A stretch of DNA of 64,000 nucleotides from NCBI RefSeq assembly GCF_000483485.1, contig NZ_KI519609.1, positions 62,001 through 126,000 on the forward strand. Reading direction: 5' to 3'. The notes beneath the pieces were generated by a model, which worked only from the letters and a program-made list of their open reading frames with translations, ran no database searches and was not told where the DNA came from. Positions 3,376 to 7,305 of this stretch are shown here, one piece after another. Both the position numbers and the translations under genes were made by a program. Each line of letters begins with the position of its first letter. The stretch's first letter is position 1. The DNA comes from Thiomicrorhabdus chilensis DSM 12352. GTDB lineage: Bacteria; Pseudomonadota; Gammaproteobacteria; Thiomicrospirales; Thiomicrospiraceae.

Positions 3376-4080
3376 TCAGATCTTGATATATTTCCAACCC
3401 TTGTTCAGCCGCTCCGCCACGGCATCGATTGCAGGCTTGTCATGCTGAACCTGGGGAATCACCTCAAAGGCCTCGCCTCGATCGAACACTCTCTGCAGGG
3501 CACGTTTACAAGCATACAAAGTCAAATTGTCATAACGCTCCAGCAGCGCTTCAAGCTGGGGTCGGTTCGGGTTTTTGACATCAAACATCCTCACCCCTTC
3601 GGCATTGGAAATGAAATCCACTTGAAGCTGTGAGCCACCTTGTGCCAATAAACGCTCAATTTCCTGTAGCGCTCTGGCCTGTTTTTTAAAATCTTCGGAA
3701 TCCAGGTGCACAATGTACTTGTTCTGCTGAGTAACGCCAGGTGCAAAATTTCCCGCCATCTGCATATTTGAATGAGAGTTGAAATTAGCATAGCCGCCCA
3801 ACATCCCGGCACCCAACACAACCCCCAACAACAGGGAGGCGGCCGCCGTTTTAGGCACCGACCAGACCCGCTTGAGTGGTTTTTGAGAATCAACTCTCTC
3901 AGGAACCGGAATCGCCTGATAGGCTTCCTTAACTTGCGATTTCAAGGTACGCAGATGACAGACCTGATCCTGAAGGTCAGGATCCAGCATCATCTCCGCT
4001 TCGATTTCCAGACACTCTTCCCTGGAAAGCTGACCGTCCACATAAGCCTGTATTTGATAGGTTTCGATTGGTTTGCCCAT
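3376..4080 (-). CDS. Membrane anti-sigma factor with a periplasmic DsrE-like domain
   Basis: The protein has 234 residues. Residues 1-60 resemble the cytoplasmic domain of anti-sigma factors (YVDGQLSREECLEIEAEM, acidic and helical) but lack the HxxxCxxC zinc motif. One membrane segment spans about 77-98. Residues 120-234 would face the periplasm and align by eye with the two exported DsrE-like proteins encoded divergently at 4974 and 5465: KYIVHLDSEDFKKQ matches KVVYHINYDDAKKQ, FISNAEGVRMF matches VAFGPGVRLM, and LTLYACKRAL matches VDFNVCANTI around a single conserved Cys (Cys191). The start codon overlaps the sigma factor's stop codon by one base (TAATG), so the two are translationally coupled. 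I infer that it holds the sigma factor inactive until the periplasmic domain senses a signal, possibly a sulfur compound. Confidence 0.78.
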   Translation of the reverse strand: MGKPIETYQIQAYVDGQLSREECLEIEAEMMLDPDLQDQVCHLRTLKSQVKEAYQAIPVPERVDSQKPLKRVWSVPKTAAASLLLGVVLGAGMLGGYANFNSHSNMQMAGNFAPGVTQQNKYIVHLDSEDFKKQARALQEIERLLAQGGSQLQVDFISNAEGVRMFDVKNPNRPQLEALLERYDNLTLYACKRALQRVFDRGEAFEVIPQVQHDKPAIDAVAERLNKGWKYIKI

Positions 4081-4655
4081 TATTTTCTCCGCAATGGCAC
4101 CACTTTATGCTGTTGCAGCTCATGGCTTTGCAGCAGCTGTTTCAATTTTTCTCGCCCTCTGGAAAGACGGCTCATCACCGTTCCGATTGGAGTGGAGGTG
4201 ATGTCCGAAATTTCCTGATAACTGAACCCCTGCAAATCCGACAAGCTGATGGCTTGCCTTTGTTCCAGGGAAAGCTTGGCCATGGCCTGATAAAAAGCCT
4301 GATTGGTCTGGCTCTTAATCAACTGGGTTTCAGTGCATTCCACCGTGTAATGCAAATCGATTTCACTCTCTTCGGCAAACTCCCAACGGCGTTTATGGCG
4401 CATATTGTCTAAAAACAGGTTATGCATGATCTTGGTCAACCAAGCGTCCAAATGCTCCAAACTGTCGAGTTTTTTGCGCTTTTCTATAGCCTTAAGCATG
4501 GTTTCCTGAACCAAATCCTGTGCCAAAGCGGGTTGATGGCTCCAAGCATAAGCCAAGCGATACAATCGTTCGTATTTGCTTTCCAATTGGGCATTAAACA
4601 GCCTGCGCTCTTTGGATTCGCAAAACAGATCCGCAACTTTGCTTGTTAATTTCAT
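4080..4655 (-). CDS. ECF-type RNA polymerase sigma factor
   Basis: The protein has 191 residues with the two-domain layout of extracytoplasmic-function sigma factors. The sigma-2 region spans about 25-95 (LAYAWSHQPALAQDLVQETMLKA, DAWLTKIMHNLFLDNMR) and the sigma-4 helix-turn-helix about 130-180 (LSLEQRQAISLSDLQGFSYQ, then GTVMSRLSRGREKLK). There is no sigma-1 or sigma-3 region. It is followed, with a one-base overlap, by a membrane anti-sigma factor and lies divergent from the DsrE-DsrE-porin genes, which are the obvious candidate targets. Its ECF subgroup cannot be decided from the sequence alone. Confidence 0.9.
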   Translation of the reverse strand: MKLTSKVADLFCESKERRLFNAQLESKYERLYRLAYAWSHQPALAQDLVQETMLKAIEKRKKLDSLEHLDAWLTKIMHNLFLDNMRHKRRWEFAEESEIDLHYTVECTETQLIKSQTNQAFYQAMAKLSLEQRQAISLSDLQGFSYQEISDITSTPIGTVMSRLSRGREKLKQLLQSHELQQHKVVPLRRK

Positions 4656-4973
4656 TTTGATATCACTTGTTTAAGTATCCTCACAGACGTTCTTTTAAAA
4701 AGCTCTTTACCTGCTTTGGAAAAGCTTCATTGAGTCTGGAACGCCCTCTTTTTTCGATAGTAATGTAATTCACTTTCTATTTGCAACAAAAATAAATTTA
4801 AAAAACCACCTGTAAATTTCTAAATATATTAACAACTTATGAAATAAGAAATTCTATGCCTTTGATAAGAAAATCTGGTTGAAGAAAATGGAATAAAAGC
4901 CTAAGCCCATACGTTAACCCGATAAGCGCGCTAAAACTTGAATCGTAAAAATGACCATAAACAGGACAGCCAT
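4656..4973. promoter_or_regulatory. Divergent promoter region between the ECF sigma gene and the DsrE-porin genes
   Basis: This 318-bp AT-rich non-coding stretch must hold the promoters for both directions. I saw no open gene or strong hairpin in it. The best rightward candidate is an ECF-like promoter at 4890-4915, listed separately. I found no convincing copy of the same motif facing the sigma gene. Confidence 0.5.
4890..4915 (+). promoter_or_regulatory. Candidate ECF-type promoter for the DsrE-porin operon
   Basis: GGAAT at 4890-4894 is followed after 17 bp by CGTT at 4912-4915, about 60 bp before the first DsrE start codon. GGAAC-N16/17-CGTT is a well-known layout for several ECF sigma groups. 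A GGAAC-like and CGTT-like pair can occur by chance, so this is suggestive only. Confidence 0.35.
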
Positions 4974-5432
4974 ATGAAACAAAAACTCAATCAATCCATT
5001 CTGACACTTTTGCTCAGTTTGGTTTTTACCCTTCCGGTTATGGCGGCACAACAGGAAGCCCCGTTACCCGAGACCTTTGCAGAACATAAGGTGGTGCTGC
5101 AAATCAGCGACAGCGACCCCTTCAAGCAGACACTGGTTCTTAATGTTGCCGCCAACCTGCAACGTTATTACGGAGCCAGTAATGTCGATATTGAAATCGT
5201 GGCCTTTGGCCCGGGGGTTAGACTGATGTTGCAAGACAATGTCAACCAACCCCGTATACAGTCGATGATAGAAGGTGGCATTCGCTTCAGCGCCTGCTCC
5301 AATACACTGAAAAATTTTGCTAAAAAACTGGGCGAAGACCCTCTTGTGATGCCGGGCGTGAATCGAGTACCGGCTGGAGCTGGACGCATCCTGCAACTCA
5401 ACGCAGCCGGATGGCAACTGCTCAAACCATAA
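4974..5432 (+). CDS. Exported DsrE-like protein 1
   Basis: The start is set at the ATG at 4974, preceded by AGGACA, rather than an upstream TTG. The protein then has 152 residues with a clear signal peptide (hydrophobic LTLLLSLVFTLPVMAA, cleavage near 25). The mature part is a DsrE/COG1416-type domain (KVVLQISDSDPFKQ..., VDIEIVAFGPGVRLM) with one conserved cysteine, Cys108, in RFSACSNTLKNF. DsrE-family folds bind or relay sulfane sulfur or thiols in sulfur oxidisers, usually in the cytoplasm, so an exported form is less common. The gene is 32 bp upstream of a second DsrE gene and resembles the sensor domain of the neighbouring anti-sigma factor. The exact ligand is unknown. Confidence 0.8.
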   Translation: MKQKLNQSILTLLLSLVFTLPVMAAQQEAPLPETFAEHKVVLQISDSDPFKQTLVLNVAANLQRYYGASNVDIEIVAFGPGVRLMLQDNVNQPRIQSMIEGGIRFSACSNTLKNFAKKLGEDPLVMPGVNRVPAGAGRILQLNAAGWQLLKP

Positions 5433-5464: not shown

Positions 5465-5953
5465 ATGAAAACAATACCAACCACATTAATAAGTCTTTTG
5501 CTAATTGGCCTGGGGGTTTTTACATCCGCCTTTGCCGATACCTCGGACCGTTACGGCAACCAAAAAGTGGTTTATCACATTAATTACGACGACGCCAAGA
5601 AGCAGTCTTCAACCCTGAGAAACATTCAGAACCACATCAATGCGGTGGGATCTGATAATCTCGACATCAAAGTGGTGATGCACGGCAACGGTTTGTCTCT
5701 GTTGATCAAACCCGAAGCCCTGAAAAATGTGCCGAAATTCAAAACGGCCAATGCCACCCAGGAGATGGTTCAAAAAATAGACCAACTTAAAATGCAGGGC
5801 GTCGATTTCAATGTCTGTGCCAATACAATCAAAGGCCGCGGAGTTGATGTCGCACGTGATTTATACGATTCCAAACCAGATGATGTGGTTCCGAGCGGTG
5901 TCGCCGAACTCGCCTACCTGCAATCACAAGGTTATCTCTATCTCAGACCTTAA
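5465..5953 (+). CDS. Exported DsrE-like protein 2
   Basis: The protein has 162 residues with a signal peptide (TLISLLLIGLGVFTSAFA, cleavage near residue 24) and a DsrE/COG1416-type domain. It carries the conserved block KVVYHINYDDAKKQ, a NLDIKVVMHGNGLSLL strand-loop, and Cys118 in VDFNVCANTIKGRG. A ribosome binding site (AAGGGGTGAA) sits just before the ATG. It is a paralogue of the preceding gene. Together they may form a mixed oligomer, as DsrE-family subunits do, but in the periplasm. A porin follows 62 bp downstream. Confidence 0.82.
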   Translation: MKTIPTTLISLLLIGLGVFTSAFADTSDRYGNQKVVYHINYDDAKKQSSTLRNIQNHINAVGSDNLDIKVVMHGNGLSLLIKPEALKNVPKFKTANATQEMVQKIDQLKMQGVDFNVCANTIKGRGVDVARDLYDSKPDDVVPSGVAELAYLQSQGYLYLRP

Positions 5954-6015: not shown

Positions 6016-7305
6016 ATGCTTAACAAAACGTCACAACTCAAAAAAACGGCTTTACTGATTGCTTTGGCAGGCGCTATGACAAGCCAATCCGTTCACGCCG
6101 CCAACTGGCTGATGGTTCAAGGAACCGAGAAGGACCATCAAGCTCCACGTGCCAAGGTATGGGGGTTTGTGCAGGCAGAATACCAACAAACCGATGACAC
6201 CAAGCTCAAAGCGGGCCCCTATGCCGGAAAAGCGGCCGCTTTCAACCAGATGGCCCCGCAATTGGATACCTCCCAAGGATTCAACGTACGTCGTGCTCGT
6301 ATTGGGGTCAGGGGCAACAACTTCCCTCTGGACAATAAGATCAATTACTTCATATTGGCAGAATTCGGCAATAACGGCATCACCACCGGTGGTGATGCCT
6401 CACAAGGACAGTTGACCGATGCCAGCGTCACCCTCAACCACATTCCGGGCGCACGCATTCGAGCAGGCCTGTTCAAAACCCCGGGGGCCGAAGAAGGCTT
6501 GCAGGCCATACCGGTTTTCAATTATGTCAATTTCACCAATGTAACCGACCGGTTATTGCTGGAACGCCATTTTGACAACTCGACCAATAACACGGGAAGA
6601 AGCCAATCGGTTGGCGCTTTCCGCGATACCGGGGTGCAGGTATTCGATGCCTTCAGAGTCGGCGACTGGGAACACAGTTATGCGGTGATGCTCGGCAACG
6701 GCAATGGTCTGGCGATGACGGATAAGGATAAACATCAGGATCTCTATCTGTATGCCTCCACTGAGAAGATTCTGGACAATAGCAAGGGACCGAGACGAGC
6801 TGGTCTGAAGTTTTTTGCCTGGATGCAAGACGGCAAACGTACATTGGATGATGTTGGAACAGTGGATCGTAAGCGATCCGGCTTGGGTACCACTTATTGG
6901 GATGGAAAATACCGTTTGGCGGCCGAATACATCACTGCAGACGGCATGATTTACGGCGGAACAAAAGGCGCGGGCACTCCCGATGACGGAGCTACTTTCA
7001 GTGTTCTCACTGATGAAAAAGCCAGTGGTTACTACCTCGATTTGGGCTATCGCGTGCTGCCCAAACTAGAACTGAACGTGCGTTATGACATGCTCGATAG
7101 TGGAACCGAAGAAGATGCCAACCATCGTGAATTTCAAACCACAACACTGGGGGCGCAATACTTTTTCAATAAAAAAACATCGGTACGCTTGAACTATGAA
7201 ATGCGTTCCATTGATGCGCCAGACCTTCCAGCCGCCTCACCGGTTCACGACATTCTGGACAGCATCGACGACCGCCTATCGGCTCAGGTCAGTCTGGTTT
7301 TCTAG
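6016..7305 (+). CDS. Outer-membrane porin, phosphate-selective porin O/P (OprP) type
   Basis: The protein has 429 residues with a signal peptide (TALLIALAGAMTSQSVHAA). It has many alternating amphipathic strands, a conserved early block FNVRRARIGVRG, and the terminal aromatic residue (LVF) typical of outer-membrane barrels. The family forms anion-preferring channels. It is the last gene of the presumed DsrE-DsrE-porin unit, ahead of a strong terminator. An anion channel induced by an envelope sigma factor together with sulfur-binding proteins would fit uptake or export of oxidised sulfur anions, but that is inference. Confidence 0.83.
   Translation: MLNKTSQLKKTALLIALAGAMTSQSVHAANWLMVQGTEKDHQAPRAKVWGFVQAEYQQTDDTKLKAGPYAGKAAAFNQMAPQLDTSQGFNVRRARIGVRGNNFPLDNKINYFILAEFGNNGITTGGDASQGQLTDASVTLNHIPGARIRAGLFKTPGAEEGLQAIPVFNYVNFTNVTDRLLLERHFDNSTNNTGRSQSVGAFRDTGVQVFDAFRVGDWEHSYAVMLGNGNGLAMTDKDKHQDLYLYASTEKILDNSKGPRRAGLKFFAWMQDGKRTLDDVGTVDRKRSGLGTTYWDGKYRLAAEYITADGMIYGGTKGAGTPDDGATFSVLTDEKASGYYLDLGYRVLPKLELNVRYDMLDSGTEEDANHREFQTTTLGAQYFFNKKTSVRLNYEMRSIDAPDLPAASPVHDILDSIDDRLSAQVSLVF

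Follow-up and report, generated by a model that had tools for sequence, protein, structure and literature searches.

A membrane anti-sigma factor with a periplasmic DsrE-fold domain, encoded beside an ECF sigma factor and a DsrE-porin operon in sulfur-oxidizing Gammaproteobacteria

What could a membrane anti-sigma factor perceive if its periplasmic part resembles proteins that handle sulfur, and which genes would answer to it? The question is raised by a gene of Thiomicrorhabdus chilensis DSM 12352 (Gammaproteobacteria), located on the minus strand at positions 3376..4080 of what we call the window, the whole stretch of 64,000 nucleotides that we analyzed (contig NZ_KI519609.1, positions 62,001 to 126,000). 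The gene encodes a protein of 234 aa, which we describe on the basis of its open reading frame, an AlphaFold model and 71 homologues. Our results suggest that it probably belongs to a transmembrane module of sulfur oxidizers, in which sulfur sensing in the periplasm governs a porin together with exported DsrE proteins.

Architecture and gene context identify the protein as an ECF anti-sigma factor. It consists of a predicted sigma-binding region in the cytoplasm, one membrane helix and a DsrE domain in the periplasm. The cytoplasmic region (residues 1-60, 3901..4080, minus strand) contains helices 7-14, 20-32 and 34-56 in the model (pLDDT block means 82-94). Matches to zf-HC2 at E up to 1 are found in 23 of 27 homologues, and hhalign relates the region to the N-terminus of a Sinorhizobium meliloti anti-sigma factor. 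The membrane helix (residues 77-94, 3799..3852, minus strand) is predicted from a hydrophobic stretch in the sequence, which is covered by a model helix of low confidence (pLDDT about 50). Upstream lies the gene of an ECF sigma factor of 191 aa (4080..4655, minus strand; Pfam Sigma70_r2 2e-14 and Sigma70_r4_2 3.6e-16; sigma70-ECF 9.2e-26, over the cut-off), which overlaps the start of the anti-sigma gene by one base. Hence, the features of class I membrane anti-sigma factors are present: a helical anti-sigma region, one membrane helix and an adjoining ECF sigma gene. A zinc-binding anti-sigma factor (ZAS) was also considered and rejected, because HxxxCxxC occurs in none of the 71 homologues.

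Is the pairing with a sigma factor a constant feature of the family? The 71 homologues come from 70 neighborhoods: the window, 29 of 30 loci from relatives (one was left out because its gene is split) and 40 further loci, one of which carries two copies. The further loci were taken from the matches listed in our class search, best first and then some from lower down. A constant ECF sigma neighbor had been set beforehand as a test of the initial annotation, and in all 71 cases the gene directly upstream was indeed that of a sigma factor. A 300-base rule recovered 66 of these (another rule gave 68), and in the remaining five (L110, L128, L133, L136 and L141) an over-long predicted start of the open reading frame overruns the sigma gene. 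In one draft genome (G007; locus L060, 1863-2553) the anti-sigma gene reads as two open reading frames, which may reflect a sequencing error or a broken gene.

The initial annotation recognized the periplasmic part of the protein (residues 119-234, 3379..3726, minus strand) as DsrE-like from an alignment by eye. Profile searches and structural alignment bear this out: judged from homologous sequences and a predicted structure, the domain has the DsrE fold, which is that of bacterial sulfur-handling proteins. A structural match to this fold had been set beforehand as a test, and hmmsearch, Foldseek and VIA all returned it with confidence. When a profile of 27 homologues was compared with PDB sequences by hmmsearch, it matched MTH1491 (1l1s) at E 2.5e-16 over profile positions 115-228 of 229, and ST0148 (2pd2) at E 3.8e-10. 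The AlphaFold model, built from 13 sequences, has a mean pLDDT of 79.9 and a pTM of 0.49, with block means of 80-96 in the DsrE domain. VIA aligned this model to 1l1s with a Z of 17.4 and an rmsd of 1.6 over 108 aa; other matches in the DsrE family were E. coli YchN (Z 14.3), DsrE (12.8) and TusD (12.5). The first ten rows, which include DsrE, TusD, YchN and named DsrE-like proteins, span Z 12.0-17.4, and the first unrelated structure follows in row eleven at Z 7.0. No unrelated fold gave a better match. Foldseek matched 2pd2 at 2.1e-7. As a single sequence the anti-sigma factor of the window has no match to Pfam DsrE, and 4 of 27 single homologues match it at E up to 1 (best 1.2e-6).

It was also claimed initially that the domain resembles, along its whole length, two exported DsrE-like proteins encoded next door. 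These are D1 (152 aa, 4974..5432, plus strand; Pfam DsrE 6e-4, under the cut-off) and D2 (162 aa, 5465..5953, plus strand; Pfam DsrE 2.6e-12, over the cut-off); their signal peptides were assigned by eye. For both proteins the likeness exceeds what chance would give. In alignments of residues 110-234, the score was 89 for D1 (z 11.8, with a shuffle mean of 28) and 59 for D2 (z 6.5), and in either case none of 1000 shuffles scored as high. However, the pairwise alignment with D2 is limited to about 46 residues, and the evidence for a match along the whole length therefore comes from profiles. When 27 anti-sigma rows were compared by hhalign with 22 rows of free DsrE proteins, Prob was 99.1 and E 2e-18, with 117 columns aligned (about residues 115-233). 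A profile of free DsrE proteins of the D1/D2 type itself matches 1l1s at E 6.2e-23.

D1 and D2 form an operon with the gene of an outer-membrane porin-like protein of 429 aa (6016..7305, plus strand), and this operon is divergent from the sigma/anti-sigma pair. The assignment to porins is a tentative one, as the NCBIfam match to porin ExtI (8.2e-5) is weak and far under the cut-off. Weak ExtI matches are found in 5 of 18 porins of the family, and a search of PDB sequences at E up to 0.1 gave no match. The porin is strongly conserved, with 31-84% identity between the window porin and 17 others in an alignment of 18 rows. Elsewhere in the same genome, a further match to the DsrE family and one of the two soxB matches are separated by about 2.3 kb (G000:C1:1063396-1063749 and 1059907-1061115).

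How much of the DsrE chemistry could the anti-sigma domain have kept? The initial annotation had quoted matching segments and a conserved cysteine in each protein (Cys191 in the anti-sigma factor, Cys108 of D1 counted from the ATG at 4974, and Cys118 of D2), and these are correct. All 71 homologues have Cys191 (codon 3508..3510, minus strand), and none has another cysteine in the periplasmic domain; the residue aligns with a cysteine of MTH1491. Trp229 is likewise kept in all 71 and His125 in 69. In the free DsrE proteins encoded at these loci, the cysteine at the corresponding position (75 of 76) is followed by x-N-T (Asn in 74 of 76, Thr in 75 of 76). The counterpart in the window's anti-sigma factor is C-K-R-A, and across the anti-sigma family Asn and Thr are each found in 22 of 71. 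Hence, the domain keeps the cysteine in altered surroundings. That C-x-N-T is mostly lost makes it doubtful that the chemistry is that of free DsrE proteins, and it is also why we do not class the window protein with the free exported DsrE proteins. A disulfide switch within the domain was rejected, since there is one cysteine only. A lone cysteine argues against any internal disulfide and would leave persulfidation, S-sulfonation or bonds between proteins.

The two kinds of DsrE domain also separate in a tree, where a single branch with a support of 100/97 divides anti-sigma from free DsrE rows. This split is consistent with a single fusion event, as far as can be told from a tree that was thinned to 63 of the 71 anti-sigma rows and 25 of the 75 free ones and that has few columns and an unsettled bootstrap.

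Our results also show that, in the class sample, the DsrE-domain anti-sigma factor is found only in genomes with sulfur-oxidation genes. Among 369 genomes of the class we found 67 carriers (E up to 1.1e-29) in 40 families. The gene soxB is present in 65 of the 67 and dsrA in 52, and every carrier has at least one of them. Among the 302 non-carriers, 96 have soxB or dsrA (Fisher p 1.2e-28, a value that ignores shared ancestry and comes with no control regulator family). We counted G293, whose partial match sits at the end of a contig, among the carriers. Three genomes in which the match is split or partial and has a weaker E (G125, G298 and G334) were left out; each of them has soxB. The searches for the anti-sigma factor, soxB and dsrA used the same settings and 369 genomes each, and we assumed that their draws were identical. 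In a sample of the phylum, 3 of 398 genomes, all from the window's class and including that of the window itself, matched at E up to 1e-20; the number of genomes outside the class is not given for this sample, and we do not take the result as absence there. Nine of the 14 relatives that were named from GTDB contigs are Thiomicrorhabdus, and plasmid records gave no match to the anti-sigma factor. The occurrence in many families of sulfur oxidizers suggests that sulfur chemistry outside the cell membrane is read through the anti-sigma factor.

How might such a reading work? We consider sulfur chemistry at Cys191 to be the likeliest signal, and on the whole a probable one. In the resting state, the ECF26-like sigma factor would be bound to the cytoplasmic part of the anti-sigma factor. 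The DsrE domain would then use its only cysteine, Cys191, to react with a sulfur species formed outside the inner membrane. Candidates are sulfane sulfur and polysulfide, or else sulfite that attacks a persulfide, and the exported DsrE proteins of this circuit may deliver the sulfur to the domain. The reaction would lead to release of the sigma factor and thereby switch on the divergent operon, with its one or two exported DsrE proteins and porin. One could go further and propose that the exported DsrE proteins take up sulfane sulfur in the periplasm and pass it to the tethered DsrE domain in a mixed complex. The persulfide state of the domain would then set sigma activity and with it the supply of more carriers and porin. 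We hold this more detailed version tentatively, as possible and some way short of probable.

The main rival to chemistry at Cys191 is that D1 and D2 simply dock: they would be bound to the DsrE domain in one state and absent from it in another, and this occupancy, not a reaction of the cysteine, would set sigma activity. DsrE folds form trimers and hexamers, and partners for such a complex are often encoded close by. A gene for a free exported DsrE protein is located no more than 2.5 kb away in 54 of 71 loci, on the opposite strand in 45 and on the same strand in 10. Moreover, seven anti-sigma domains group together in a clade (94/69) in which every member has a same-strand DsrE gene downstream, as do L049 and L110 outside the seven-member clade. 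Nevertheless, we think that docking is an unlikely explanation, for the following reasons. First, it leaves the invariance of the sole cysteine unexplained. Second, 17 of the 71 loci are without a DsrE gene within 2.5 kb, although some of these loci are truncated at contig ends, and the gene may also lie at another place in the genome.

A porin gene is found within 4.5 kb in 47 of 71 loci, and a DsrE or a porin gene in 58. Thirteen loci have neither; in five of these the sequence on the sigma side covers less than 2.2 kb, and in eight at least 2.9 kb. One locus (L124, 2081-8280) contains two tandem sigma/anti-sigma pairs; a DsrE gene lies downstream of one of them, and the other is accompanied by a DsrE gene and a porin gene in divergent orientation.

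If the sigma factor is released by sulfur chemistry at Cys191, which genes would it transcribe? An ECF-type promoter, GGAATAA-N15-CGTTAA, is present at 4890..4917 on the plus strand, 56 bases ahead of the D1 start and before the DsrE-porin operon, and similar sites are found in relatives. The general motif (GGAATAA, a spacer of 14-16 bases that is mostly 15, and CGT) was spotted by eye in 29 sigma upstream regions from the window and relatives. It is present in 26 of these 29 and in 20 of 40 regions that were not used for its discovery. Overall, 46 of 69 sigma upstream regions contain the motif, compared with 0.15 expected from mononucleotide shuffles; it is missing in 23, and three regions were excluded because they were too short. 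Just 3' of the window promoter, at about 4922-4931, we also noticed an element like AAGCGCGC, which by eye recurs in many loci of the genus.

Across the 69 regions the motif points toward the divergent gene in 38 and toward the sigma gene in 17. Within the window's genus, the site faces the DsrE operon in 20 of 20 regions (two of 22 were too short) and never the sigma gene; the 17 loci with a site toward the sigma gene all lie outside the genus. Hence, autoregulation seems to have been lost in the genus.

A wide regulon was considered as well and rejected, because scans of the window's own genome and of the genus did not find more sites outside the module than the reversed control gave. In the window genome, the pattern with CGTNNA yields 5 sites, compared with 8 for the reversed control, and none beyond the module stands above background. 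Since there is no second site above background in this genome, the regulon seems to be a local one. Across 32 genomes of the genus, a pattern with CGTTTA, which does not match the window's own site (CGTTAA), yields 27 sites, 16 of them at known modules, and the control yields 17. Two of the 11 other sites (G014:C2 and G010:C97) may be module sites on other contigs.

The promoter raises a second alternative, which is that the protein senses sulfite as ECF26 systems may do. Sulfur in the periplasm would maintain Cys191 as a persulfide, sulfite would take off the sulfane sulfur to give thiosulfate, and the stripped form would free the sigma factor. According to excerpts of PMC6527743, sulfite is the reported inducer of ECF26 (RpoE4/SigE), and the sulfite-responsive sigma factors have the consensus -35 GGAAT / -10 CGTC, with no further strong genomic matches. 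The promoter of the window family, GGAATAA-N14-16-CGT, fits this consensus, with a -10 that is mostly CGTT in the window's genus. When plasmid records were searched with the sigma factor, a locus of S. meliloti Ak57 came up in which sigma, anti-sigma, sulfite oxidase, cytochrome c and pseudoazurin genes stand in a row, and similar loci are found in Aminobacter and Bradyrhizobium. The Ak57 order is that of the characterized rpoE4-sorT locus, as far as the excerpts of PMC3511301 describe it. The Ak57 sigma factor is 34% identical to that of the window over 166 aa, and its RpoE4-type anti-sigma factor resembles the window family in the cytoplasmic region (hhalign E 2.1e-8, profile columns 9-70). 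The resemblance ends there: the Ak57 anti-sigma factor has no match to the DsrE domain, and its periplasmic part is a different one. Moreover, the predicted target of the window's sigma factor, an operon of two DsrE genes and a porin gene, includes no sulfite oxidase. We therefore regard a sulfite sensor of the ECF26 kind as quite improbable here.

In a tree of 60 sigma factors (52 of 72 from the window family after thinning, three of ECF26 type and five other ECF), the window family forms one group (95/96) with the ECF26 type as its sister (86/73). The branches are long, and the placement beside ECF26 suggested by these sequences is not firm.

That the DsrE domain is a structural remnant, in a protein that senses envelope stress or a ligand other than sulfur, is very improbable: anti-sigma factors use many recruited folds and C-x-N-T is degraded, but the lone cysteine is invariant and His125 nearly so over 71 divergent sequences, and 67 of 67 sampled carriers have soxB or dsrA.

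How does the proposed sulfur sensing through Cys191 compare with what is known from other systems? No such arrangement was known to the initial annotation, and the literature we searched agrees: among the matches listed, no anti-sigma factor with a DsrE domain is described. The closest relatives of the domain itself are on the branch of MTH1491 and ST0148 (with YchN, DsrE and TusD), with which it shares the same fold throughout residues 119-234. In contrast to DsrE proteins of the MTH1491/ST0148 type, the window domain is tethered to the membrane as the predicted sensor part of an anti-sigma factor. The sulfane-sulfur regulators described in the literature excerpts we searched are, among the matches listed, soluble transcription factors. 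One of them is SoxR of Hyphomicrobium denitrificans, a sulfane-sulfur-responsive repressor of sulfur-oxidation functions (PMC10451225, in excerpts). SoxR is soluble and binds DNA, whereas the window protein would sense in the periplasm and act through a sigma factor. If this is correct, the module would assign a function to the exported DsrE and porin pair that is widespread in sulfur oxidizers.

A further comparison is with the ECF26 systems, RpoE4 of S. meliloti and SigE of Starkeya novella. As in the window, an ECF sigma gene is followed by an anti-sigma gene, and there are few targets and a sulfur-related output (PMC3511301 and PMC6527743, in excerpts). The targets themselves differ, being sulfite oxidase, cytochrome c and pseudoazurin for ECF26 and, by prediction, exported DsrE proteins and a porin for the window. 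How the sigma factor is released in ECF26 systems is stated to be unknown in the excerpts of PMC6527743. Here, a similar sigma factor and promoter are tied to a DsrE-fold domain with a single cysteine, so that the module offers a defined residue, a promoter and a target operon.
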